A DNA stretch of 36,249 nt from Lachnospiraceae bacterium (GTDB lineage Bacteria > Bacillota > Clostridia > Lachnospirales > Lachnospiraceae). Position numbers and translations under genes: made by a program. Where the stretch lies: contig JAILCK010000005.1 of assembly GCA_024680435.1 (NCBI GenBank), forward strand, positions 1 through 36,249. The letters run 5' to 3'. The notes under the pieces were generated by a model that did not search any database, had not been told where the DNA came from, and saw nothing but the letters and a program-made list of their open reading frames with translations. Below are positions 2,068-18,176 of the stretch, piece after piece. Every line of letters begins with the position of its first letter. Position 1 is the first letter of the stretch.

Positions 2068-3309
2068 CTACATATGGCGCAAAAGATCCTCGTAAGTCTC
2101 TCTTTTGCGAATTACTTTATCTTCACCGGCCTTTGTAATAAGCACTTCGGCGGGTCTTGGACGAGAATTATAGTTAGAGCACATGCTGTATCCGTAGGCA
2201 CCTGTGTCAAGTAAGCAAACTATATCTTCTTCCTTAATATCCGGTACCGGCCTTTCTTTACAAAGAAGATCTCCGGATTCACAGATGTTACCGCAAATTG
2301 TGATTTCTTTTAAGTTTTCTCTCTTAACCACTTTTCCGTCTCTTATTATTTCAGCATCATGCCAAGAGTCATACATAGAGGGGCGCACAAGAACGTTCAT
2401 ACCGATATCAGTTCCTGCGTACTCTTTTCCCGCATTAGTCTTTGTGGCATATACTCTTCCAAGTAAAACTGAACCTTCCGCTACGCAGAATCTTCCGGGC
2501 TCAGACTTAAACAAAGGAGCATATCCATAGTCTTTTACAAATTCATCCAAAATAGGCTCAAGTCTTTTCTTAAAGTCTTCAATATCATATTCGGCCTCAT
2601 CATCAAGCTTATGATAAGGGATTCCGTATCCGCCGCCAAAATCGATAAATTCAAGATTCTTAAACCTCTTTGCGATTCTAAGTAAGTTTGAAACCGCTTC
2701 AAGATAGGGATCGGGCTTCATAAACAAAGAACCTATATGCTGATTGATTCCCGCAATTGTAAGGTTGTACTCTTTTGCAATTTCAAAAATCTCATCTATA
2801 TCTTCTTCTGAGATTCCAAACTTTGTTTTCTTTCCGCCTGTAACTACCTTTTCATGGTGTCCGGCACCTACGCCCGGGTTAATTCTTACGGCACATTTTC
2901 CGCCCTTGTTAAGCTTTCCGTACCTTCTTAACTGAGCAAGAGAATCAAGGCTTGTCATAATATTTCTATCTATTGCATATTTCATTTCTTCATCGGAAAC
3001 ATTGTTTGGTACGAAGAAAATTCTGTCATATTCAAAGCCTGCAGCCTCAAGCATCCTGATTTCTCCTTCGCTCATGGCATCGCAGTTAAGGCCTTCTTCA
3101 TGGGCAAGCTTAAGAATATGAATATTGGTGTTTGCTTTAACTGAATAGTTTGCCGTATAAGGATATTTTGTGATTACCTGTGACACCTTATGCATGCGGT
3201 CTCTTAAAATGTTTTCGTTATATACATAAAGAGGTGTTCCGTATTTTTTTGCAAGTTCTTCTGCGTTTGTATTTCCAAAGAAATTTACTTTTTCAACAAA
3301 TGAATTCAT
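2068..3309 (-). CDS. lysA: Diaminopimelate decarboxylase
   Basis: 413 aa PLP-dependent decarboxylase; YSVKANTN, HIGS, FGGGYGIPY, SEPGRFCVAEG, CESGDLL, GAYGYSMCSNYNSRPRPAEVL. Confidence 0.95.
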   Translation of the reverse strand: MNSFVEKVNFFGNTNAEELAKKYGTPLYVYNENILRDRMHKVSQVITKYPYTANYSVKANTNIHILKLAHEEGLNCDAMSEGEIRMLEAAGFEYDRIFFVPNNVSDEEMKYAIDRNIMTSLDSLAQLRRYGKLNKGGKCAVRINPGVGAGHHEKVVTGGKKTKFGISEEDIDEIFEIAKEYNLTIAGINQHIGSLFMKPDPYLEAVSNLLRIAKRFKNLEFIDFGGGYGIPYHKLDDEAEYDIEDFKKRLEPILDEFVKDYGYAPLFKSEPGRFCVAEGSVLLGRVYATKTNAGKEYAGTDIGMNVLVRPSMYDSWHDAEIIRDGKVVKRENLKEITICGNICESGDLLCKERPVPDIKEEDIVCLLDTGAYGYSMCSNYNSRPRPAEVLITKAGEDKVIRKRETYEDLLRHM

Positions 3310-3323
3310 CTATATCTCCTAAA

Positions 3324-4304
3324 TTATAATAAGTGAGCTCTCATATCTTCAGCGGACATATCGCTTAAGTAAGCGGGTGCAATGTCAAATACTGTCTTGC
3401 ATCCTGTGCTTCCTTCCTTATTTAAGCGTGCAATCGCTCTTGCATATGCCACAATTACGGATGCGGTAAACTCGGGATTTGAATCAAGCTTTAAGCTATA
3501 TTCGATAATAGCTTTGTTTTCACCTTCCCATCCGATGTTACCGCTTCTTATAACAAATCCGCCGTGAGGAATTCCCGCATGGTTTTTATCAAGCTCTTCC
3601 TGTGAAATAAAATGTACCGTTGTATCGTAGTCTGCAAAGTAGTTGGGCATTGTCTTAATTTCTTTTTCGATTCTTTCAAGGTCTGCGCCCTCTTCAGCCA
3701 CTACAAAGCATTCTCTTGTGTGCTTTTCTCTTGTGGTAAGTGTAGGGTTCTCACCGTTTCTTACTTTTTCAAGAGCTGCCTCTACAGGAATTGTGTACTG
3801 CTTTCCGTCTTTTACTCCGTCAATTCTTCTGATTGCATCTGAGTGGCCCTGGCTTACGCCCTTTCCCCAGAAGGTGTAGTCGCTTCCCTTTGGAAGCACG
3901 CAGTTAGCGTACAATCTGTTTAAAGAAAACATTCCGGGATCCCATCCTGCTGAAATTAAAGCAGTGTGACCGGTTTCTTTTGCCGCTTTATCTACATTGG
4001 CAAAATGCTCAGGGATGCGCGCATGTGTGTCAAAAGAATCGATTACGTTAAAGTATTTTGCATACTCGGGAGTCATCTTGGGAAGGTCTGTTGCGCTTCC
4101 TCCGCAGATAATCAAAACATCGATTTCATCTTTATGCTCTAAAATCTCATCAACATGTCTTACAGGTACACCCTGTGTCAAAATTGAAACTGTCTTAGGG
4201 TCTCTTCTTGTGTATACGCCCACAAGCTTTGCATCGGCGTTTGCCTTAACAGCACATTCAACGCCTCTTCCTAAATTACCGTAACCTAAAATTGCAATAT
4301 TCAT
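3324..4304 (-). CDS. ddh: meso-Diaminopimelate D-dehydrogenase
   Basis: 326 aa; GYGNLGRGVECAVKANADAKLVGVYTRRDP, SAGWDPGMFSLNRLYA, WGKGVSQGHSDAIRRIDGV; characteristic Ddh motifs. Confidence 0.95.
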   Translation of the reverse strand: MNIAILGYGNLGRGVECAVKANADAKLVGVYTRRDPKTVSILTQGVPVRHVDEILEHKDEIDVLIICGGSATDLPKMTPEYAKYFNVIDSFDTHARIPEHFANVDKAAKETGHTALISAGWDPGMFSLNRLYANCVLPKGSDYTFWGKGVSQGHSDAIRRIDGVKDGKQYTIPVEAALEKVRNGENPTLTTREKHTRECFVVAEEGADLERIEKEIKTMPNYFADYDTTVHFISQEELDKNHAGIPHGGFVIRSGNIGWEGENKAIIEYSLKLDSNPEFTASVIVAYARAIARLNKEGSTGCKTVFDIAPAYLSDMSAEDMRAHLL

Positions 4305-4306
4305 AA

Positions 4307-5005
4307 TTAATTCTCCTTACCCATTTGTATTAGTGTTATTTTATTTTTTAATGCCTCTTTCATGACAGCCACCAAATTTGCCTGTCCGGAATAAAGACAT
4401 GTATCACTTTCTTTTCCCTCTAAGCTTCCCGTAAGTACGTAGGAAGAATCGATTATCAAACGTAACTGACCTTTTTCGGGAGCAGTCTTATACATAATCG
4501 CCTTATCAAAGAATGAATTGTCCGTTAGCACCACGACCTTTTTCCCTTCTTTAATCAAAGCCTCTATTTCAGTCCTGTATTCTTCAAGCACACAGCCTTC
4601 AGCCATAATGTAAACTCTAAGTTCACAAGCTTTAAGCATTTCTTCGATTTTGTTGCATATGTGCTTTGTGCCTTTGATTGTCACATAGCCTTCTGTTTTG
4701 GCAGATGCTTTCGGCGCTTCTTTTATAACAATTCCGGCTTTTTTACTAAGCTCTTTTAAGACATTTTCCGTAAATACCTTTACATCCACAGCCTGAAACT
4801 TTGTGGCCTCTCCTTCGCAAAGGTACGCGGCTCCCTTTTCAACCAAACTGTTAAGGGCGCTGTACACATTTGATCTTGATATTCCGGTTTCTTTTGAAAC
4901 CTCATATCCCGTCATTTCGCCATGCTTTAAAAGTTCAACATATATGGAAGCTTCCTGCCCCGTAAGGCCAAAGGCCTTTATGTTTTCTTCGAATGTATTT
5001 CCCAT
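4307..5005 (-). CDS. TrmB-family HTH transcriptional regulator
   Basis: 232 aa; N-terminal HTH 'FGLTGQEASIYVELLKHGEMTGYEVSKETGISRSNVYSALNSLVEKGAAY' matches TrmB-type winged helix; directly upstream of ddh with 1-2 nt spacing. Confidence 0.85.
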   Translation of the reverse strand: MGNTFEENIKAFGLTGQEASIYVELLKHGEMTGYEVSKETGISRSNVYSALNSLVEKGAAYLCEGEATKFQAVDVKVFTENVLKELSKKAGIVIKEAPKASAKTEGYVTIKGTKHICNKIEEMLKACELRVYIMAEGCVLEEYRTEIEALIKEGKKVVVLTDNSFFDKAIMYKTAPEKGQLRLIIDSSYVLTGSLEGKESDTCLYSGQANLVAVMKEALKNKITLIQMGKEN

Positions 5006-5126: not shown

Positions 5127-8100
5127 CTATCTTGCACTTCTGAATATGTAATCTATGTATGGAGTTTCTTCAAATGATATGTAGGGCCCGTATGCGGGAA
5201 TCGTACAGAGTAAGGCATGCACCCCTTCGGGAATCATTATCTGATATCCTTTGTTTGACATTAAAAGGGCCGGTCGATTCTTTGGATTATGAGACATGTA
5301 CTTTGCCGAATTTGATACTTCCACCCAGTCAGAGTCGCTCTCGCCCCTAATACTTAATGTCTCCTTTTTAGTAAAGTCAAAGTATTCCCACCAGACATCT
5401 TTAGTTCCGTGGAACTGTCTTGGAAGCATCTGATTCTCTGTAAGTAAAAGATTATTGCTTTTATTATAGAAAGAAACCTCTCCGGTTTTCTTAACCACTT
5501 TGACAATAAGCTTATCAAGTATAATATCCACGCCTTCTCTTGATTCGCTTACTCTCCACTTTAGCCCTTCCTTTTTCTTTATTTCTTCAGGCAAAGCGCT
5601 TACTTTTCCAAGGGTTCCTTTGTAAAAAAGCACTCTAACGGTTTCATCAGAAACGGGTGTTATTTTAAGTATTCCGTAGCTTCCGGTGATTTCAACGCCT
5701 GATTTATCGGCCTTTATCCATTTAACAGAATTATCGATTCGCCCGTGACCTATGGGCTGTAAACTTGTTCCATCGGGCATCCTTCCAAATTCTGTAGCGC
5801 CAATCGGCTCTTTCTTTTCTTTTGGAAGAGAGTAGGCTAGCTCAGGCTTAAAGGTCTTTGGCTTTACTATTTCCACTCTTCTGTTTATAGGAGTATCAAG
5901 ATTGGGAGTCTTTGAAACAACAGTCGCCTTTTTCTTTGCTACAGTTTTTTCAACCTGCCCCTTTGAATTAACTATTATTCTTGCAGGCCCGTATTTATCT
6001 CTTAGTGCTCTTTCTCTGTCTCCTTCTTTTGCCTGCTCTTTGGCAATTTCTTCCTTTGTTTTAAACTCTTCTTCGTATACAAAGGGCTTAACGTGGAAGT
6101 CATCCTCTAAAAAGTTTATGGTTTTTCTATCTTCAGGAATCGGGTCTTTAATTAATCCTGTAAGCTCGCCCTTATAAAAAACAGAAAGCTCATGAAGCGC
6201 TCTTGTTGCAGCTACATATAAAAGCTTTGCATAGCCGTCTTCCTTTGGATAAGCCTTCATTGATGCGTCATATATTATTACAGCATCAAATTCAAGACCC
6301 TTAGAATACTCAATCGGAAGTATTATAGTGCCGTTAGAAAACTCGGCTTCTTTATCGTTAAAAAGCCTGGCACCTATTTTCTTTCCAATTGCCTTATATA
6401 CTTCTTCCGACTCCTTTAAGTCTTTACAAATAATGGCTATGGTTTCATATTCTTTTTCTTTAAATTCTAAAGCTTTCTTTTCTACAAGCTTATTTAAAGA
6501 ATCCGTGTCTAAAGCGCCTTCAACGTTTACTTCGTCCCCATGCCTTACAATGGGCTCAACTGGGTAAATTGGGAAACTTGCATGCCTAAGCACATCCGTT
6601 GCAAAATTTGATATTTCAACCGTGTTACGATAACTCTTTCTAAGTAATCCAAAGTAATCGTATTTATTTGGAAGCATTACCTTCTTTAATTCTTCCCAGT
6701 CGCTTAAACCGCAGGAAAAATTAATGTTCTGAGATACGTCTCCCATGATGGTGAAGGTGCACTTACTCATGCAATACTTAAGTGACCTGTAAACCATCAT
6801 TCCAAAATCCTGAGCTTCATCGATAACCACGTGACTTGCTTCCTGGATTACTTCGGTTTCTTTTATCCTTTTATATATGTAGGCTAAAGAAGCCAAATCG
6901 TATAAGTCGGGCTTGTCTTCTTCGTAGTTAAACACGCATCTTTCGGCCATCTTTTTATCTACGAATTCTTTGTACAAAGAAAACACCGATGTCTTCCAAA
7001 TGAATTTGTTAAAGTAGTTTGTGTAATACCTTGTAAGCTTCTTTTGTTCCTCAACGTTATAGGAGTAATACCTTCCGTACAGTTCGTTTTCAAGCTTAAC
7101 CATCAAAAGGTCGTTAAGACGCTCAAACTTTCTAAACATGGGCCATTCCGGGTATTCTTTAATAGCTTCTTTTATTTCTTCCCCTGTTAGTAAGGTTCTG
7201 TTAGTTCTTTCTATTACGATGTCATCTTTAGGAATGTGATTAAATTCAACTTCATCGCAGAATTTTCTAAGGTCCTTATACCATTTGGTGCCGCCCTTAA
7301 TCTCTATGCCCTTTTCACTTTTTTCAAACTTTCTGATTGAATACTTCTTATCGTCCCAATCTTCGTACAAAAGCCTTGTAAAGAGTTCTTCCATTGTCAT
7401 TTGGCGAACTCCGTATACATCAAGGTCAGGAAGAACACCTGTTATGTAATTAAGGAGCACCTTATTGCTTCCCACTATATAAAAGCTTTCGGGCTTAAAC
7501 TCAACATCGTAGTTATAAAGGATATAAGAAATCCTATGCATGGCAACAGTCGTTTTTCCGGAGCCAGCACTTCCTTGCACAAGTACGTTATGCCTGGGAT
7601 TTTTACGTATAACTTCGTTTTGTTCCTTTTGAATGGTGGCAATGATTTCGCTTAAAACGTTTCTTTTGCTTTTTGATAAATACTTTGTTAAAAGGTCATC
7701 GTTTGCAACAACATCTGAATCATAGAAATCTTTAATCTCTTCATTTTCGATTTCATAGGTTCTTTTTCTTTTTAAGTCGACTCTAAACTTCCCTTCCTTA
7801 GGAACCTTATAATCGCATATTCCAAGACTGTGATCGTAGTAGACAGAAGATATCGGAGCTCTCCAGTCTATAACCATCGGATTTGCGGGGTCCGTTGCGA
7901 TGACAGACTTTCCGATGTAGAAGGTTTCTCTCTTTGAAGCCGCGTCATCTTCGATATCGATTCTTCCAAAGAACGGTTTGCTTAAAGCCCTCTCAGCTCT
8001 TCTTAAGTCATTTCTTACTTCATTAAATCTGGCATCTGTGTTAAACCATTGCGCCAATCCTTCTTTGTCGTCAACATCATAGACTTCTCTTAAGGACTTT

Positions 8101-8240
8101 AAATCCTCTTGCAGTCCCGCTGCAGTCCTTTTTACCTGCTCGATTTTACTTTTTGCTGCTTCCTTTACTTCTTTTAACTTCCTGTTTTCATCTTCAGCGG
8201 TAATTCCGTAAAAATTACCTTTTATCACGCTTTCTCCCAT
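5127..8240 (-). CDS. HelD-like UvrD/Rep superfamily 1 helicase with additional C-terminal GH31-N-like (galactose-mutarotase-fold-like) domain
   Basis: 1037 aa; VQGSAGSGKTTVAMHRISYILYN Walker A, VIDEAQDFGMMVYRSLK, GLLRKSYRNTVEI, YSKGLEFDAVIIYDA, LLYVAATRALHELSV. C-terminal ~220 aa (SGVEITGSYGILKITPVSDETVRVLFYKG ... KLIVKVVKKTGEVSFYNKSNNLLLTE ... ALLMSNKGYQIMIPEG ... PYIDYIF) resemble the GH31 N-terminal beta-sandwich. Confidence 0.88.
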   Translation of the reverse strand: MGESVIKGNFYGITAEDENRKLKEVKEAAKSKIEQVKRTAAGLQEDLKSLREVYDVDDKEGLAQWFNTDARFNEVRNDLRRAERALSKPFFGRIDIEDDAASKRETFYIGKSVIATDPANPMVIDWRAPISSVYYDHSLGICDYKVPKEGKFRVDLKRKRTYEIENEEIKDFYDSDVVANDDLLTKYLSKSKRNVLSEIIATIQKEQNEVIRKNPRHNVLVQGSAGSGKTTVAMHRISYILYNYDVEFKPESFYIVGSNKVLLNYITGVLPDLDVYGVRQMTMEELFTRLLYEDWDDKKYSIRKFEKSEKGIEIKGGTKWYKDLRKFCDEVEFNHIPKDDIVIERTNRTLLTGEEIKEAIKEYPEWPMFRKFERLNDLLMVKLENELYGRYYSYNVEEQKKLTRYYTNYFNKFIWKTSVFSLYKEFVDKKMAERCVFNYEEDKPDLYDLASLAYIYKRIKETEVIQEASHVVIDEAQDFGMMVYRSLKYCMSKCTFTIMGDVSQNINFSCGLSDWEELKKVMLPNKYDYFGLLRKSYRNTVEISNFATDVLRHASFPIYPVEPIVRHGDEVNVEGALDTDSLNKLVEKKALEFKEKEYETIAIICKDLKESEEVYKAIGKKIGARLFNDKEAEFSNGTIILPIEYSKGLEFDAVIIYDASMKAYPKEDGYAKLLYVAATRALHELSVFYKGELTGLIKDPIPEDRKTINFLEDDFHVKPFVYEEEFKTKEEIAKEQAKEGDRERALRDKYGPARIIVNSKGQVEKTVAKKKATVVSKTPNLDTPINRRVEIVKPKTFKPELAYSLPKEKKEPIGATEFGRMPDGTSLQPIGHGRIDNSVKWIKADKSGVEITGSYGILKITPVSDETVRVLFYKGTLGKVSALPEEIKKKEGLKWRVSESREGVDIILDKLIVKVVKKTGEVSFYNKSNNLLLTENQMLPRQFHGTKDVWWEYFDFTKKETLSIRGESDSDWVEVSNSAKYMSHNPKNRPALLMSNKGYQIMIPEGVHALLCTIPAYGPYISFEETPYIDYIFRSAR

Positions 8241-8979: not shown

Positions 8980-10185
8980 TCAATCCTTAGCTAAGAGCTT
9001 ACCGCCACGCTTTGAAACTACGTCAAAGATAACTGCTGCAAGTAATACTCCGCCCTTTACAACCTTCTGCATGTTCTGGTCTACGCCCATAAGTGACATA
9101 CCAAGGTTGATAACGCCCATGAGGACCGCACCAATGATGATGCCGGGAACCGTACCGATTCCGCCGTATGCGCTGGCACCACCGATGAAACATGATCCGA
9201 TAGCATCCATTTCATAGTTCTGGCCGTATGTAGGCTGAGCTGATGTAAGTCTTGCTATTGTGATCATTCCGGCAAGTGCTGCCAAGAATCCCATGTTTGT
9301 ATATGCCAAGAAATAAACCTTATTTGTGTTGATACCTGAAAGCTTTGTAGCCTTTTCGTTACCGCCCACTGCGTAGAAGGCACGTCCGATTGTGGTGTTT
9401 GATGTAATGTAGTGGTAAATCAAAACTACAGCTACCACCCAAATCAAAACTGTAGGAATACCTTTGTGGAAAGATAAAGCTACACCAAAAGCTGTAAGTA
9501 CAGCTGTGATGGCAAGAGATTTAAACCAGAAAGCAAAAGGCTTTTCTGTTTCATAACCCTTGCTGCTTCTTATAAGTCTTTGCCTTATCTGTGAGAATAA
9601 GAATAAAGCAGCTGCAACCAAAGTTACCAATAAGCATAAGCCGTTTGCTCCACCCACAGTGAAAATTGCGGGTACATAACAGTTAGCACCGCCACCAAAC
9701 AACTTAACGAATGTTTCCTGTTCTTTGATAGATACTGTCAAACCATCAAGCACTACGTTACTTAAGCCTCTGAATGCAAGCATTCCGGCAAGTGTTGTGA
9801 TGAAGGGAGGTATTCTTACGTAAGCAATCCAGAAAGCCTGGAAAGCACCGATTGCAATACCTATTGCAAACATTACTGCTATAGCTGCATACATGTTCCA
9901 GTGGTGATTCATCATAAGTACTGCACCTACAGCACCAACGAAACATACAACCGAACCAACGGAAAGGTCGATGTTACCACCTGTCAAAATACAGAGCAGC
10001 ATACCCGTTGCAAGCACGAAAACGTATGCGTTCTGTGAGATCAAACTACTGATGTTCATGGGTGCAAGGATTGATCCCTGCGTCATTGTTGTAAAAAAGA
10101 TAACGACCAAAACCAGAACAATTATCATGGCATACTTTTTTACAAAAGTAATTGTGTCGCCTCTTCTTGCTTGTGTCTTTTCCAT
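8980..10185 (-). CDS. mmsB: Monosaccharide ABC transporter permease (MmsB/GguB/XylH-like)
   Basis: 401 aa; GNIDLSVGSVVCFVGAV, IPPFITTLAGMLAFRGL, GGNEKATKLSGINT, FIGGASAYGGIGTVPGIIIGA; long form with insert typical of multiple-monosaccharide permeases. Confidence 0.9.
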   Translation of the reverse strand: MEKTQARRGDTITFVKKYAMIIVLVLVVIFFTTMTQGSILAPMNISSLISQNAYVFVLATGMLLCILTGGNIDLSVGSVVCFVGAVGAVLMMNHHWNMYAAIAVMFAIGIAIGAFQAFWIAYVRIPPFITTLAGMLAFRGLSNVVLDGLTVSIKEQETFVKLFGGGANCYVPAIFTVGGANGLCLLVTLVAAALFLFSQIRQRLIRSSKGYETEKPFAFWFKSLAITAVLTAFGVALSFHKGIPTVLIWVVAVVLIYHYITSNTTIGRAFYAVGGNEKATKLSGINTNKVYFLAYTNMGFLAALAGMITIARLTSAQPTYGQNYEMDAIGSCFIGGASAYGGIGTVPGIIIGAVLMGVINLGMSLMGVDQNMQKVVKGGVLLAAVIFDVVSKRGGKLLAKD

Positions 10186-10196
10186 TTCTGTCCTCC

Positions 10197-11723
10197 TTAA
10201 GCTGTCCTTACGATGTGGGACATGATTTTTTCCTGAGTCGCTTCTTTTCCGTCAAGTTCCGCAACGATTCTACCTTCATTCATGACATAAATTCTGTCAC
10301 ACATACCGAGTATTTCAGGCATTTCAGAAGAAATCATGATAACCGACTTTCCTTCAGCAACCAATTGATTCATGATGCAGTAAATTTCATATTTTGCACC
10401 TACATCGATACCTCTTGTGGGTTCATCAAGAATCAAAACATCAGGATCGGCAAACATCCATTTTGCCAAGAGAACTTTTTGCTGGTTACCACCGCTTAAG
10501 TTTCCTACATTTTGTTCAACGGTAGGGCACTTGGTGTTTAACTTTTCTTTGTATTCAACAGCAACACCGTATTCTCTGTCTTTATCGATAACACCCTTGT
10601 TGCTTACACCTTCGAGATTTGCAATTGTTGTGTTTATCTTAATAGGATTTGATAAAATTAATCCGTTTCCTTTTCTGTCTTCTGTAACATATGCAAGCTT
10701 ATGTTTGATTGCCTGCTGTGCGTTATGAAGATGTACGGGTTTTCCGTCGATAAGCAGTTCTCCGCTTATATTTGTGCCGTAGCTCTTTCCGAATAAGCTC
10801 ATGGCAAGCTCGGTTCTTCCTGCTCCCATAAGTCCGGAAATACCTACGATTTCACCTCTTCTTACGTTTATGCTTACATCGTCAACAACCTTTTTCTCGG
10901 TGTAAAGAGGATGATAAACCGTCCAGTTTCTAACTTCCATCTTAATATCACCGATGTTACTTTCTCTCTTGGGAAAACGGTCTTCGATTTCTCTACCAAC
11001 CATTCCCTTAATGATTCGGTTCTCTGATAAATCGTCTTTTTCTTTATCAAGAGTTTCTATGGTTGAACCGTCTCGCAAAACAGTAACTTTATCAGCCACG
11101 TAAGATACTTCGTTTAGCTTGTGAGAAATTAAGATTGAAGTCATTCCTTCGCTCTTAAACTTTAAAAGAAGATCGAGCAAAGCCTTTGTGTCTTCTTCGT
11201 TAAGAGACGCTGTAGGTTCATCCAAAATAAGAAGTTTTGCATTTTTTGCAAGTGCCTTGGCTATTTCTACAAGCTGCTGTTTACCTACACCTATATCCTT
11301 AATTAACGTCTGCGGATTTTCTTTAAGACCTACCATCTTAAGGTACTTAGCCGCAAGCTCATTTGTTTCATTCCAATCAATTTTGTATTTACTACCGCGT
11401 TCATTACCAAGAAACATGTTCTCGGCAATTGACATATAAGGAATCAACGCCAATTCCTGGTGAATTATAACGATTCCTTTGCTTTCGCTGTCTTTAATTA
11501 CATTAAAATGGCAAACCTCACCATTATAAACAATATCTCCTTCATACGTGCCGTACGGATAAATTCCGCTAAGCACATTCATAAGGGTAGACTTCCCTGC
11601 GCCATTTTCGCCGACAAGAGCGTGAATCTCACCCTCTTCTACCTGAAAATTTACATTATCGAGTGCTTTTACACCGGGAAAAGTTTTGGTTATATTCTTC
11701 ATTTCAAGTAATACGTTAGCCAA
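10197..11723 (-). CDS. mmsA: Monosaccharide ABC transporter ATP-binding protein (two ABC domains)
   Basis: 508 aa; [77 protein letters not shown]. Confidence 0.94.
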
Positions 11724-11795
11724 CTTAATCCCTCCCTATATCTTTCTTAAAAACAGCAGGCGGGGGATAACCCGCCTGCCAATAGTTTTTACTGA

Positions 11796-12860
11796 TTACT
11801 GAAGTTCGCTCTCTTTGTAATAACCTGAGTCAATAAGTAACTCTTTGTAGTTGTTAACGTCTGCAAATACAGGCTCGCAAAGGAATGAAGGAATGATACC
11901 TGTTCCGTTGTCGTATGTCTTTGTATCGTTAACGGGAGCTTCTGTTCCCTTCATGATAGCGTCAACCATTTCTACGGTCTTAGCTGCAAGAGTACGTGTA
12001 TCCTTAAAGATAGACATTGACTGCTTGCCCTTAATCATATTCTTAACGTTTGCGATATCACAGTCCTGACCTGTAATGATGGGCCAATTGTCGTGTGTAC
12101 CTTCGTAGTTAGCTTCGAGTGAGTTTGTAACACCCATAGCTGTTGAGTCGTTTGATGCCATAACTGCATCAAGCTGTGTTCCGTCAGAGTAGTTCTTTGC
12201 GATGATTGCATCGAATCTTGACTGAGCGTTTTCTGTTGACCAACCTGCTGTTGCAACAGTAGCGAAGTCTGTCTGACCTGACTTAACAACGAGCTGTCCG
12301 TTGTCGATGTACTTCTGAAGAACGTCCATTGCTCCACCAAAGAAGAAACGAGCGTTGTTGTCACCGGGGTCACCTGTGATAAGTTCGATATTGAAGGGGC
12401 CCTTGCCATCCTTAAGACCGAGCTGTTCTTCGATGTATTCGCCCTGCTTTGTTCCTACCATGTAGTTATCGAATGTAGCATAGTAAGAAACTGCATCAGA
12501 GTTCATAATCAAACGGTCGTATGCGATAACCTTAACGCCTTTTTCTTTAGCCTGAGCTAAAACGGTTCCGAGTGAATCACCTTCGATAGAAGCGATAACC
12601 AAAACCTTACATCCTGATGAGATCATGTTCTCAATCTGAGAAACCTGAGTAGCGATATCGTTTGAAGCGTACTGAAGGTCAACTGTGTAGCCGGCCTTTT
12701 CAAGCTGTTCCTTCATGTTAGCGCCATCCTGATTCCATCTCTGTAAATCTTTAGTAGGCATTGCAACACCAACTTTGTTGGCGCTTCCGCCGGCGCCGCA
12801 TCCGGTAAGCATAGCTGCTACCATAACGACTGCAAGGATTAAACTTAAAAGTTTTTTCAT
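11796..12860 (-). CDS. chvE: Sugar ABC transporter substrate-binding lipoprotein (ChvE-like)
   Basis: Start moved from the ORF-track 12911 to ATG at 12860, which has a GGGAGG RBS and lipoprotein signal MKKLLSLILAVVMVAAMLTGCGAG; body VGVAMPTKDLQRWNQDGANMKEQLEKAGYTVDLQYASNDIATQVSQIENMI. Confidence 0.9.
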   Translation of the reverse strand: MKKLLSLILAVVMVAAMLTGCGAGGSANKVGVAMPTKDLQRWNQDGANMKEQLEKAGYTVDLQYASNDIATQVSQIENMISSGCKVLVIASIEGDSLGTVLAQAKEKGVKVIAYDRLIMNSDAVSYYATFDNYMVGTKQGEYIEEQLGLKDGKGPFNIELITGDPGDNNARFFFGGAMDVLQKYIDNGQLVVKSGQTDFATVATAGWSTENAQSRFDAIIAKNYSDGTQLDAVMASNDSTAMGVTNSLEANYEGTHDNWPIITGQDCDIANVKNMIKGKQSMSIFKDTRTLAAKTVEMVDAIMKGTEAPVNDTKTYDNGTGIIPSFLCEPVFADVNNYKELLIDSGYYKESELQ

Positions 12861-12970
12861 TTTAATTCCTCCCAAAATATTTAGTTTTTTGATACACCTA
12901 AATGCTATCATAATTAACTGGTAATTAATTTTCGGCTCTCTTGATTATTTTTCCAAAAAAAATTGCTATA

Positions 12971-13010
12971 AAAAAAGAACCGTGTAATTTTTTGTCATCA
13001 CACGATTCTT
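12971..13010 (-). terminator. Terminator/attenuator between the XylF-like and ChvE-like genes
   Basis: Stem GAACCGTGT (12977-12985)/ACACGATTC (13000-13008, one G-U pair on the transcript) followed on the minus strand by a T-run. Confidence 0.75.
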
Positions 13011-13029
13011 TAAACAATTTTTTACTATC

Positions 13030-14079
13030 CTACTTTGGCATCTTCTCGGGAACGTTTAAATATACTTCTTCCTTTAAATGAAAACCGCTTCCTATAATAA
13101 CTTCATTCATATTGTCTTTTGTAACGGGAGTGGGCTTTAATCCGATATATGGAATAACATATTTTCCGTCACTTATGGATGTAACATCATCACCTTCCAA
13201 TGTTTCTCCGTTTGCAAGATCAATCGCACATTCAGCCGCTCTTTTTGCAAGCTTTTCAACAGGCTTATAAACCGTCATTGTCTGGGTGCCTTCCACTATT
13301 CTCTGGCAGGCTTCCAAGTCAGCATCCTGGCCTACAACTTCTATTTCTCCCGCCATTCTTTTTTCAGCCAAAGCTCTTATAACCTGTCCCGCAAGGTTAT
13401 CGTTTCCGCACATGATTGCGTCAATGTTAGAGACAACATCCGGATTATTGTAAATGTATTCTGCAGCAAACTCTGCTCTCCAACCGTCGCAATGCATGGA
13501 ATCAACAATGGTCATGTTCTTTCTGTTGCATACGGCTTCAAATCCTGTTTCCACCAAAGGAACGTTATTATCTAAAGGTGAGCCACCAAGCATAAGCACT
13601 CTTTTTCCATCAGGATTATTTTCAGCCAAGGCCTCGCCCATAAGATTTCCAACCATTTCATTATCAAAGGTAATGTATAAATCCGCGTTTGAATTGGTGA
13701 CTAATCTATCGTAGGCAATTATCTTTATTCCCGCATCCTTTGCTTTATCCACAACATCCTTCAAAGAATCGGAATCTATACACACAATTACGATTACATC
13801 CACACCTTTTTTAACAAAGTACTCTATTTGCTCTATCTGCTTATCCACATCACCGTTTGCATTTTGCACATTAACGGTAGCTCCTAATTCTTTTGCGGTA
13901 GAAACAAATACATCTCTGTCTCTTTGCCATCTTTCTATAACAAAAGAGTCAAAACTCATTCCTATTTCAATTTTATCTTTATCCTCAGCAGGCTTTAACT
14001 GCTCATTTCCTCTTTTTGACCCACACCCCATTAAAAGACACATTGAAAGGATAAATAAAAGTAACCTCCCTTTTTTCAC
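13030..14079 (-). CDS. XylF-like sugar-binding lipoprotein
   Basis: 349 aa, GTG start; lipobox LMGCG; VIERWQRDRDVFVSTAKELGATVNVQNANG, IIAYDRLVTNSNADLYITFDNEMVG, GGSPLDNN, VVGQDADLEACQRIVEGTQTMTVYKP closely resembles E. coli XylF. Confidence 0.9.
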   Translation of the reverse strand: MKKGRLLLFILSMCLLMGCGSKRGNEQLKPAEDKDKIEIGMSFDSFVIERWQRDRDVFVSTAKELGATVNVQNANGDVDKQIEQIEYFVKKGVDVIVIVCIDSDSLKDVVDKAKDAGIKIIAYDRLVTNSNADLYITFDNEMVGNLMGEALAENNPDGKRVLMLGGSPLDNNVPLVETGFEAVCNRKNMTIVDSMHCDGWRAEFAAEYIYNNPDVVSNIDAIMCGNDNLAGQVIRALAEKRMAGEIEVVGQDADLEACQRIVEGTQTMTVYKPVEKLAKRAAECAIDLANGETLEGDDVTSISDGKYVIPYIGLKPTPVTKDNMNEVIIGSGFHLKEEVYLNVPEKMPK

Positions 14080-15663
14080 TTACTTACCCTCCCTGTATTC
14101 TGTAGGTGTGACTCCTACGTTCTTTCTGAATGATTTGCTAAAGTAATTAGGATCTGAGTATCCGCACATTGTACATATTTCTTTCATTGAATACTGCGTG
14201 GAGTTTAAAAGGTCTTTGGCCTTTTCGATCCTAAGCTTAGTAAGATAATCGATAAAGTTTTCTTTTGTATTTTCTTTAAAAATCCTGCTTAAATAATATG
14301 AGCTGATATTTACCGCCATTGACACATCATCAAGAGTTATGCTCTTTGTGTAATTTGCTTCAATATATTCTTTTGCAGCCTTTATTACATCATTTGAGCT
14401 TTCGACTTTTTTGTTAAGCACATTTACACAGGAAAATTCTATTTTGTCTTTAAACCAGTCCCAAAGGCTTTCCATGTCCGTAAGCTTCATGATTTCCGGA
14501 AGGTATTCATGTCTGTCTTCAAACCTGTATGTCATGCCTCCGCTCTCATAAGCAATAGACTCAGCTCTTAAAGCAAATTCCAAAGCCTTTAATCTTGCAT
14601 CCATAAAGTCTCTTTGGCCCATCCAGTTAAAGTATTCTTTACCGGTGCTTAAAGCTGCATCCACTCTTCCTTTTTCGACTTCTTCAAAGAACTTTCTTTC
14701 AAGTTCAATAGGATAGTCGCCGGAATATCCGCATCCTATGGGAAGGTCGTCTGCGTGAGCAACGGAGTTTGTGGTAATGATTAAAGCATTTATTGCCTCT
14801 CTATAAGAGCTTTCCATATTTTCAAGTTTACTTACTCTTCCTATTCCGATTCTGAAAGCAATATCTGTCTTTTCATTTAATTTATGTACAAAATCTCTTG
14901 CCTTTGAAATAACGGATTCTCTTTGCGAATAGGTCATTTCTTCATCTTCAAAGGGCACCAAAACCGCGATTTTGTTACCCATAACGGAACCTACCATAGC
15001 ATCAAAGTAAAGCTTTAAATATTCTCTTATATCTTTGTATTCTCTTTGAATTCTGACACTGGAACCTACGGCGTTTGTCATATGATTTCCTTCTTTTTCA
15101 TCACCAAAGACAATGGCCATCATGTAGGCGTTTTCTGTTTTTATATCAAGCATTGCTTTATAGTTTTGAACGTCTTCTTCAAAATGCTCGTGAAATAAAA
15201 GGTCGTAAATAAATCCGTTTTCCAAAATAGGTACGACGGTTTCAAGCTTTTCTTTTACAAGCAAATCGTTTGAACGTCTTGTTTTTTCTTCAGAAACAAT
15301 AGCCATGGCTTTTTTAAGAGCAGCAATCATTTTATTCTTTTCCATGGGCTTTGTTAAATATTCAATGGCTCCAAGTTTGATTGCTTCCTGTGCATAGTCA
15401 AACTTATCGTAGGCAGACATAACGATAAAGATAACATTGTCGTTTGACTTTCTGATTTCACGCATGGCATCTATGCCGTTTATTCCGGGCATCTGAATAT
15501 CCATAATGGCAATGTCGGGTCTAAACTGCTCTGCAAGCTCGATTACATTTCGCCCGGTTTTTGCATATTCAATTCTGCATTCGTCCTGAAATTCTTTTTG
15601 TATTAAGAATTTCAAAGAATCGATTACGATTCCCTCGTCGTCTGCAAGCATTATCTTATACAT
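14080..15663 (-). CDS. Response regulator with AraC-type HTH output (YesN-like)
   Basis: REC domain MYKIMLADDEGIVIDSLK..., PDIAIMDIQMPGINGIDAM, YLTKPMEK; C-terminal AraC HTH ISSYYLSRIFKENTKENFIDYLTKLRIEKAKDLL...CGYSDPNYFSKSFRKNVGVTPTEYR. Start moved from the ORF-track 15729 to ATG 15663, which overlaps the kinase stop. Confidence 0.93.
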   Translation of the reverse strand: MYKIMLADDEGIVIDSLKFLIQKEFQDECRIEYAKTGRNVIELAEQFRPDIAIMDIQMPGINGIDAMREIRKSNDNVIFIVMSAYDKFDYAQEAIKLGAIEYLTKPMEKNKMIAALKKAMAIVSEEKTRRSNDLLVKEKLETVVPILENGFIYDLLFHEHFEEDVQNYKAMLDIKTENAYMMAIVFGDEKEGNHMTNAVGSSVRIQREYKDIREYLKLYFDAMVGSVMGNKIAVLVPFEDEEMTYSQRESVISKARDFVHKLNEKTDIAFRIGIGRVSKLENMESSYREAINALIITTNSVAHADDLPIGCGYSGDYPIELERKFFEEVEKGRVDAALSTGKEYFNWMGQRDFMDARLKALEFALRAESIAYESGGMTYRFEDRHEYLPEIMKLTDMESLWDWFKDKIEFSCVNVLNKKVESSNDVIKAAKEYIEANYTKSITLDDVSMAVNISSYYLSRIFKENTKENFIDYLTKLRIEKAKDLLNSTQYSMKEICTMCGYSDPNYFSKSFRKNVGVTPTEYREGK

Positions 15664-17140
15664 CGTCTGTCTCCTTGATATCAAGATATATTTTAAACTT
15701 TGAGCCTTTATTTTCGCCTTCGCTCTCAACGCTCATAACGTCTTCACTTCCCACAAACAGCTTAAGCCTTGCCATAACGTTATCCATTCCGATTCCGTTT
15801 GAAGATTTCTTTGAAGAGCTTATGGGTGTTCCGTTCATAAGGTGCTCTATGGTTTCTTGGTCCATACCTATTCCGTTATCTTCTATGCAAATGCATGCAA
15901 CGTCGTCAAGCCTGTAAACACTCATTTTAATCTTGCCTTCGCCCATCATGTCTCTGATTCCGTGGTTTACACAATTTTCAATAATGGGCTGCAAAATCAT
16001 GGCAGGCATGGGTACGTTTAAAAGTGAAGAATCTATTTCTTTTTCATAGTGAATTTCACCGGAAAAACGCACATTTAATATGTATATATAGTTGTCGACA
16101 AGCTCAAGTTCCTCTCCGATAGTAACGGTCTTTTCGCCCTTTTTTACATTGTATCTAAAAAACTCCGCCATTACCTGCACGTATTCATAGGTCCTGTCCG
16201 CTCCCTCCATCATTGCAAGCTGGGCACCCGCATTAAGAGTGTTAAAAAGAAAATGCGGGTTAATCTGAGCCTGAAGGTATTTTAACTGGGCATCTTTAAG
16301 GTGAGCTTCCATTTTAAGTTCTTTTTCTTTTAACTCTCTTTCCGTCTCGGCGCTTTTACGCATCTTTTCAATGTAATCCTGGATGCTTACCACCATTTTG
16401 TTAAATGCCTTGGTAACAACACCGATTTCATCTTCTGCTTCAACGGGCAAAGAAGCTATTTCGAAGTTTCCTTTTGCTACTTCATCCGCCACTCCTTTTA
16501 AGTTTCTTAAAGGCCTAATCAATTGCTCTGTAAGCTTTAAAATCAAAAGAGCATTTGCAAAAATAACTACGATCATTATAAGATTTCCGGCTGTTTCAAA
16601 TCGCCTGAAAGAAGTCACCAAGCCTCTGTAGTTTTCGGAGTTTTCCTTAAACTGTTCGTTATTCAAACTGTAAATATATGTATTTATATAGCCGTATAGT
16701 TTGGTGGCATCATCGTATCTTTCACGGTACTTTTCTACGTTTCTTCCACGCTTAGCTTCAATAGTCTGTTCTACTTCATTTAAATAAATGTAGGACATAT
16801 TTTTAATGGAGCGCTGCATTCTGTCCAAGGCTTTTTCCGACACGCTGCTGTCTAAGTCTTCCACCATCTCTTCGTATTCTTGCGCACTCTTATAATAGTC
16901 TTCCAAAGCATCGCTTGTTTTTGTGTTTAGAAATTCCGTCATGTTATCCTGCACAGCTTTAATGGATGCGGACAGTTCATTAAGCTCTAGGTTTGCTCTG
17001 TAAACCGTATCGATTTTATCCGCCATACTGTTAATTGAAAACAGTAAGACAATGTTAATCATAAATACAAGCAAGTTTACGGAGAGGGTGATTCCCATCA
17101 TTTTTACCTGAAGAGGAAGATTACGGAGTTTTGTCTTCAT
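15656..17140 (-). CDS. Sensor histidine kinase (YesM/LytS-like, His_kinase family)
   Basis: 494 aa; N-terminal TM, HAMP-like segment, LKYLQAQINPHFLFNTLNAGAQLA, IEDNGIGMD, GIGMDNVMARLKLFVG. Confidence 0.93.
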   Translation of the reverse strand: MKTKLRNLPLQVKMMGITLSVNLLVFMINIVLLFSINSMADKIDTVYRANLELNELSASIKAVQDNMTEFLNTKTSDALEDYYKSAQEYEEMVEDLDSSVSEKALDRMQRSIKNMSYIYLNEVEQTIEAKRGRNVEKYRERYDDATKLYGYINTYIYSLNNEQFKENSENYRGLVTSFRRFETAGNLIMIVVIFANALLILKLTEQLIRPLRNLKGVADEVAKGNFEIASLPVEAEDEIGVVTKAFNKMVVSIQDYIEKMRKSAETERELKEKELKMEAHLKDAQLKYLQAQINPHFLFNTLNAGAQLAMMEGADRTYEYVQVMAEFFRYNVKKGEKTVTIGEELELVDNYIYILNVRFSGEIHYEKEIDSSLLNVPMPAMILQPIIENCVNHGIRDMMGEGKIKMSVYRLDDVACICIEDNGIGMDQETIEHLMNGTPISSSKKSSNGIGMDNVMARLKLFVGSEDVMSVESEGENKGSKFKIYLDIKETDDV

Positions 17141-18176
17141 TTTCTTCCTCCTCTCTGTAGGTGGAAACGTTTGAGCTGTTTATAACCGAAACGTCCGCCA
17201 CAAAGTATTGGCTTGTATTCCCATATTCTAAGTATTCACTTAAGGCATCTATGCAATACTGTCCCATCTGCTTTGCATCAATAGAAATGGTTGCATAGAT
17301 TACGTTTCTTTCTATTCCTTTTAAAATAGCTTCAGAATCGTAATAACCCAAAATATTAACAAGACCTACATCGTTATATTCAACTACCGTCTGATAGACG
17401 CTCGTTGTATCGATTTCGTTAAGGCAAACAACTATATCGGGAAGGTCGTTTCTGTTTTCTATAAACATATTTCTTACAGATTCTTCAACAGAAAAGTTAC
17501 TCGACTCATCCACCAAAAACATGGACATTTCAATAGGTTTTACAATGACTTTTGATCCGCTTTCAATTGTCTCCTGCATTGCCGAAAACAAAATGTTTTG
17601 GCCAAGATCGTCTGCATTCGCATCCACCAACACCACAACTTTAATGCTCTCATCCGGAAATGGCTTTGAAGTGGCCCTTGAAAGCACAAGCTTTCCGTAC
17701 TCGCTTCCAAGCTCATAATTTGAAATACCCACAAAGCTTATTCTCTCGGATTTTCTGTTATCCGTATTTAAAGTAACTACAGGAATTCCCATTTCATATG
17801 CTTTATGAATGGCCTCAGTCATTTCATCGCTTTCGTTTGCTTCAACAATAATTCCGTCAACACCCGAAGCAATGGCTATTTCCATAAGCTCAGTTTCCGA
17901 ATACTCTTTTGAGAGGTTTTCGGAAATCATGTCTACATACGCATTTTTTTCTTTTCCCGCTTCAAAAGTTGACTTATATAAGGACTGCCAAAAAGACGAC
18001 TTCGAATCCGTCGAAATCATCGCATAGTATTTATCGTAATGCTCTTTTTGTTCTGTTTTTCTCAGGGTTTTACTGTACGAAATAAAGAAAAATATAAGTA
18101 AACCGGTAAGGCACACAAGCACCCCGGTTATCGCCCAGATGATTATAGAATTCAAGTAACCCCTTACTTTTTTCAT
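17121..18176 (-). CDS. Membrane-anchored periplasmic-binding-protein-like sugar sensor (XylFII-like)
   Basis: 351 aa; N-terminal TM helix IIIWAITGVLVCLTGLLIFFFIS rather than a lipobox, followed by type 1 PBP fold (GVDGIIVEANESDEMTEAIHKAYEMGIPVVTLNTDN...). Overlaps the kinase gene by 20 nt. Confidence 0.85.
   Translation of the reverse strand: MKKVRGYLNSIIIWAITGVLVCLTGLLIFFFISYSKTLRKTEQKEHYDKYYAMISTDSKSSFWQSLYKSTFEAGKEKNAYVDMISENLSKEYSETELMEIAIASGVDGIIVEANESDEMTEAIHKAYEMGIPVVTLNTDNRKSERISFVGISNYELGSEYGKLVLSRATSKPFPDESIKVVVLVDANADDLGQNILFSAMQETIESGSKVIVKPIEMSMFLVDESSNFSVEESVRNMFIENRNDLPDIVVCLNEIDTTSVYQTVVEYNDVGLVNILGYYDSEAILKGIERNVIYATISIDAKQMGQYCIDALSEYLEYGNTSQYFVADVSVINSSNVSTYREEEENEDKTP

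Follow-up and report, generated by a model that had tools for sequence, protein, structure and literature searches.

What a GH31-type sandwich would be doing at the end of a HelD-type protein is the question raised by one gene in the stretch of DNA analyzed here, the first 36,249 nt of contig JAILCK010000005.1 (GCA_024680435.1, Lachnospiraceae bacterium), hereafter the window. HelD proteins recycle stalled RNA polymerase and afford protection against rifampicin, and their classes are defined by their arms. An earlier note, made from the sequence alone, had read the 1037-aa ORF as a full HelD/UvrD-type helicase followed by a sandwich resembling the N-terminal domain of GH31 glycosidases. The segment then singled out, 5127-5810, corresponds to aa 811-1037 plus the stop codon; the folded sandwich is narrower, at aa ∼839-1035. 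The features assigned to the gene are collected in Table 1.

Table 1. Features of the helD-type gene in the window and the evidence for each
Feature	Position	Strand	Evidence
helD-type gene, 1037 aa: HelD motor, linker and GH31 N-domain-like module	5127..8240	(-)	ORF; NCBIfam HelD_BACSU 4.2e-106; PDB HelD
Secondary-channel-arm-like helical hairpin, aa 15-87, acidic tip D55, D57, D58, E60	7980..8198	(-)	AF2 model, conservation
Walker A GSAGSGKTT, aa 223-231	7548..7574	(-)	Motor-residue invariance
Clamp-arm region, aa ∼283-467 (borders approximate)	6840..7394	(-)	6wvk_H alignment and domain borders of PMC7749167
2A head domain, aa ∼541-705, usual HelD C-terminal end	6126..6620	(-)	6wvk_H alignment; unfused HelD ends
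Linker, aa 706-816: variable, mostly disordered, helix at 729-750	5793..6125	(-)	pLDDT, gap lengths in relatives
FGxxPxxxxLxPxGHG peptide, aa 817-833	5742..5792	(-)	Residue conservation
GH31 N-domain-like beta-sandwich module, aa 839-1037, no barrel	5130..5726	(-)	Profile, hhalign, AF2, Foldseek
Intrinsic terminator-like hairpin directly after the helD stop codon	5102..5123	(-)	9-bp stem, T-rich tail

Residues 1-705 constitute a HelD-type motor. This region matched the NCBIfam model HelD_BACSU at 355.7 bits and, in the PDB, B. subtilis HelD (6wvk_H, 3.4e-68) and also M. smegmatis HelD (6yxu_H), which bears out the helicase described in the earlier note. When the full-length AF2 model was searched with Foldseek, 6wvk_H was again returned first (E = 6.7e-31), followed by other HelD, GH31, and UvrD/PcrA structures. 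Outside the Walker A motif, motor residues were located at DEAQD 474-478, R538, and R680. Residues G226, G228, K229, T230, D474, E475, D478, R538, and R680 were invariant in 60/60 fused proteins, and the motor residues were also invariant in 12/12 unfused HelDs. The N-terminal arm was modeled by AF2 as two long helices (15-53 and 59-87) with a tip whose acidity is conserved, E60 being present in 59/60 fused proteins and Asp or Glu at position 58 in 57/60. In B. subtilis HelD, the secondary-channel arm has been shown to act through its acidic tip (PMC12802891). A clamp-arm insert of ∼185 aa is present at the homologous place in domain 1A and aligns to 6wvk_H only in part. The score of the window HelD does not reach the equivalog cut-off of the model (NF041464, 419 bits), and a close unfused Lachnospiraceae HelD likewise fell below it at 357.9 bits. 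The cut-off was therefore apparently set for B. subtilis-like orthologues, and the label “Class I-like” is used here. By its anatomy the window protein belongs with the Class I-like HelDs; its motor residues are intact, and the motor presumably still recycles RNA polymerase.

The 2A head forms the C-terminal end of B. subtilis HelD, which stops at aa 774 (PMC7749167); in Lachnospiraceae, most unfused HelDs stop 0-11 aa after the core. In the window HelD, ∼330 residues follow the 2A head. The C-terminal segment thus lies beyond the point at which these proteins end and does not correspond to an already described HelD domain, an outcome that the earlier note had allowed for. The first part of the extension is a linker for which pLDDT was ∼30 over aa 746-814 in the full-length AF2 model. 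Across relatives, the gap between core and module ranges from 63 to 184 aa and the linker sequence varies freely; the module is predicted to sit on a long, flexible, disordered tether. The peptide that directly precedes the sandwich is conserved, with F818 present in 0.89-0.93, P822 in 0.93-0.96, G831 in 0.87, and H832 in 0.89 of sequences, and was not found in GH31.

The sandwich itself was hard to recognize from one sequence: a single-sequence search gave no Pfam or NCBIfam match, and in the PDB no more than E = 0.081, to BoGH31A, which is below significance. Matches of a lysyl-tRNA-synthetase type were rejected as short chance alignments. When a profile of 15 family members was used (hmmsearch), the PDB matches obtained were BoGH31A (2.6e-5) and the Xac1773 alpha-xylosidase (0.0013), and four further matches, with E values up to 0.18, were likewise GH31. 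Several relatives reached Pfam PF13802 below its cut-off, the best with 24.4 bits (E = 4e-5) against a gathering score of 27. Alignment of 24 modules with seven local GH31 N-domains by hhalign gave 99.6% and E = 7.1e-24. The module alone was modeled by AF2 as an almost entirely beta structure (mean pLDDT 90.7, pTM 0.90), and all 42 Foldseek matches to the PDB at E < 1e-3 were GH31, the best being 5zn6 (5.6e-11, TMq 0.71). Profile and fold comparisons thus returned GH31 N-domains, which excludes the absence of a fold match as grounds for abandoning the proposed identity. No homology to mutarotases proper (aldose 1-epimerase) was found, only to GH31 N-domains. When the module was searched against relatives by BLAST, the weak matches proved for the most part to be genuine GH31 enzymes that possess a barrel, a C-terminal domain, and DUF5110. 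The (beta/alpha)8 barrel with its catalytic aspartates is missing from the fusion, as the ORF ends earlier in every complete fused protein. The module is, by descent, a GH31 N-terminal domain without its barrel, a computationally established identity, and the window protein is not a GH31 enzyme.

The ends of the fused proteins carry a trace of this descent. The junction between N-domain and barrel in GH31 reads (M/L)D(F/Y)YFxxGxxxxxIxxYRxLTGK. Early-branching members of the fused family end YFLxG...AYRxLCGK, to be compared with the GH31 hinge YYFxxG...YRxLTGK just ahead of the barrel; one fused tail, for example, reads QMDFYFLAGSTPEALFDAYARLCGK and stops, where GH31 reads QMDFYFIAGENFDTVIDGYRTLTGKAAMLPKW... 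and continues. The early-branching C-termini ...MDFYFLLGDETECLSAYRFLCGR, ...MDFYFLAGSTPEALFDAYARLCGK, and ...LDYYFILGKTTEDVINSYRKLCGDQIV are each followed by the stop codon, and all stop inside the hinge. Given that these tails keep a hinge remnant, the domain appears to have been excised from a GH31-type gene, with the cut falling at the boundary of the barrel. In the genus of the window the hinge helix has been lost too, and the protein ends IDYIFRSAR. The suggestion that the protein stops exactly where a barrel would begin is accordingly correct for the early-branching relatives and not for the window protein, in which the final ∼20 hinge residues are also gone. The pattern is that expected of excision of an N-domain and subsequent erosion of an unused hinge.

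In a tree of 98 HelD cores, built by a quick method, the 60 fused proteins fell on one side of a single branch (SH-aLRT 98), nested among unfused proteins, such that one change is needed; three of these proteins were labeled fused by hand, as the module is in a different frame or on a different contig in two of them (L158 and L178) and lies beyond the contig end in the third (L179). The modules formed one group against 12 GH31 N-domains (100/100), and no loss of the module was seen inside the fused clade of the 98-core tree. The fusion was gained once, in an ancestor within Lachnospiraceae.

The fusion was found in 33/397 sampled Lachnospiraceae genomes, representing 26/334 genera; in one of the 33 (G023) only the module is visible, at the end of a contig. 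Such recurrence means that the fusion is neither a chance event nor an assembly error. In the genus of the window, the module was present on every HelD whose C-terminus was not cut by a contig end. A contig scan returned 33 loci, nearly all in records named Lachnospiraceae and including cultured [Clostridium] polysaccharolyticum DSM 1801. In a class-wide sample of 391 genomes, the window's own was the only fusion matched and none was found in other families; the remaining matches, all from those families, were GH31-like frames, mostly 798-839 aa long. The earlier note had left it to a survey of HelD homologues whether the module recurs; it proved to have arisen once and to be widespread within Lachnospiraceae, and it was not seen in other families of Clostridia. 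Setting aside copies that are broken or cut by a contig end, no module standing free or on another protein was found in the Lachnospiraceae-wide sample. The free-standing candidates were rejected as a frameshift beside a HelD core (G190), as contig ends (G089 and G023), and, for a 506-aa frame in G202, as a GH31-like frame with hinge and barrel start. Within this distribution, one genus (g67; L170, L171, and L221) includes two genomes with very divergent modules, and its member G398 also encodes a second, unfused HelD (732-aa frame), a natural comparison of both forms.

Module dN/dS was 0.02-0.15 in 13/15 close pairs (Nei-Gojobori), near the values of the HelD core, with a few of the 13 rough owing to high dS; the two other pairs were uninformative, one having a dS of 0.01 (and a meaningless ratio of 1.2) and one not being computable. 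The module is under purifying selection and has been kept across at least 26 genera. Residues G920, E935, R941, S995, and Y999 are near-invariant. The GH31-conserved columns that are retained belong largely to the fold core (G856, K917, E935, E960, S995, G998, Y999, G1018, Y1020, D1030, and F1033). The YGLGQ...LRG...Q.N.K...P positions of GH31 are mostly lost, a stretch of ∼35 aa of the GH31 N-domain is deleted, and many residues that would lie around the lost barrel have not been kept. Newly conserved in the module family are R941, W951, Y953, F954, S983, and C1012, together with F818, P822, G831, and H832 ahead of the sandwich. These patterns are consistent with a scaffold that has been kept and a working surface that is new. 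The loss of GH31 loop residues together with the new conserved set leans toward protein binding, although conservation cannot separate protein binding from ligand binding.

No neighboring gene recurs in a fixed place across genera, the neighborhood being conserved in close relatives only. Downstream of helD in the window, a TrmB-type regulator, a diaminopimelate dehydrogenase-like gene (ddh), and a diaminopimelate decarboxylase-like gene (lysA) lie in a row (2068-5005, minus strand), a trio found next to helD in only a few other genomes, all close relatives. An operon partnership was rejected on the grounds of this limited occurrence and of the terminator-like hairpin that separates the trio from helD, which looks like its own transcription unit. 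Elsewhere in the window (8980-18176, minus strand), genes of a sugar-type ABC importer lie beside those for three Peripla_BP_4 proteins and for both parts of a two-component system, a histidine kinase with HAMP and a response regulator with AraC output, an arrangement that suggests a substrate-binding protein feeding the sensor kinase.

The RNA polymerase delta subunit (HARE-HTH) was not found in 57/59 HelD-bearing Lachnospiraceae genomes, fused or unfused. Since delta is missing both with and without the fusion, the idea that the module specifically replaces delta was rejected. In these genomes HelD seems to work without delta.

These observations are, in our judgment, probably explained by a Class I-like HelD and a GH31 N-domain that were joined once and retained together. 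In this explanation, a GH31 N-terminal beta-sandwich was joined once to the HelD C-terminus, cut at the hinge between N-domain and barrel, and may now serve as a non-catalytic docking module whose flexible tether extends past the 2A head, at the downstream side of RNA polymerase. The module may bind a partner, either a polymerase surface or another transcription or replication protein, and such binding would place or hold the recycler. In its complex with RNA polymerase, HelD occupies the downstream face and inserts its arms into the channels (PMC7749167), so that a tethered module could make contact with HelD itself, with the surface of the polymerase, or with proteins bound to DNA nearby. 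Strong selection across at least 26 genera suggests a borrowed fold with a new use in transcription. Docking is the favored reading of the sandwich, by somewhat better than an even chance. The neighborhood unconserved beyond close relatives, the apparently separate transcription unit, the absence of a confident placement in the AF2 model, and the NCBIfam score below cut-off are counted against the explanation as a whole. Behind docking we would rank, in order, an internal cap, a sugar or sugar-phosphate sensor, and a passive passenger.

The module might instead be a regulatory cap that folds back on the motor or arms and restrains ATPase activity or channel entry until polymerase is met. Its invariable occurrence on a HelD protein in the Lachnospiraceae-wide sample, broken and contig-cut copies aside, and a tether that could extend as far as the motor are consistent with such a cap. 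In the full-length AF2 model the module was not confidently positioned against the core (pTM 0.46, weak evidence drawn from 27 related sequences), and we regard this arrangement as unlikely.

Slightly more doubtful is a role in which a soluble sugar, sugar phosphate, or glycan would be bound by the module and polymerase recycling would come to depend on carbohydrate state. Such a role would fit a module derived from a sugar-enzyme domain in genomes that also carry genuine GH31 enzymes, and in one GH31 enzyme an N-domain tyrosine joins the +1 subsite of the neighboring protomer (PMC9061262). Against sugar binding stand the loss of many GH31-conserved loop residues and the ∼35-aa deletion. Moreover, isolated GH31 N-domains are not known to bind sugar. 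The stronger form, in which a retired sugar-enzyme domain senses a carbohydrate or sugar-phosphate signal and thereby gates the recycling motor, is to be given still less credence; if true, it would tie the clearance of transcription complexes directly to fiber or sugar metabolism in gut Lachnospiraceae.

That the module is a passive passenger, acting as a spacer or for stability and simply retained since an accidental fusion, is improbable. In most pairs the module has diverged more rapidly than the HelD core and the linker is unconstrained, as might be expected of a passenger, but dN/dS values well below 1, the near-invariant residues, and the absence of loss within the fused clade argue against it. 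Generic beta-sandwich likeness, that is, analogy instead of descent, would fit the sub-significant single-sequence matches but is scarcely credible given that GH31 is the sole family indicated by profile, fold, and hinge fossil, with the register maintained as far as the LTGK hinge. Sandwiches other than GH31 did not match better by profile or by fold.

The locus offers a clean case in which the non-catalytic domain of an enzyme has been taken over by transcription machinery, with the cut visible as a fossil at the barrel hinge and the GH31 N-domain fixed on HelD in one lineage of gut and rumen bacteria. The C-terminal ∼230 residues offer a direct handle on how HelD is targeted or regulated, and the delta-less genomes raise the question of what assists HelD. 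The portions of the HelD literature covered (the class survey PMC8655204, the review PMC10719064, and others, with subscription papers and preprints outside the scope) mention no C-terminal accessory domain, and within the same scope nothing relevant was found that pairs HelD with GH31 or Gal_mutarotas_2 with a helicase. HelD itself is of a known kind; the architecture of HelD plus GH31 N-domain is unusual and well supported.

The closest known system is Class I B. subtilis HelD (6WVK, 6ZCA; NF041464), with which the window protein shares the SF1 motor 1A/2A, the acidic-tipped N-terminal secondary-channel arm, and a clamp-arm region between the 1A halves. It differs in that its clamp-arm region is ∼60 aa shorter, its score lies below the NCBIfam equivalog cut-off, and a linker and GH31 N-type sandwich are added after the 2A head, where the B. 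subtilis protein ends at aa 774. With the GH31 N-domain (PF13802 Gal_mutarotas_2; BoGH31A 5JOU, MeXyl31 5ZN6) the module shares fold and core residues, and early-branching relatives also keep the hinge as far as YRxLTGK. Unlike GH31 enzymes, it lacks the barrel, the ∼35-aa stretch, and most of the GLGQ/LRG loop residues, has the conserved FGxxP...GHG peptide in front, and scores under the Pfam gathering cut-off. The RpoE delta subunit, the partner of HelD in B. subtilis, is likewise an extra element working with HelD, although its HARE-HTH fold is unrelated to that of the module.
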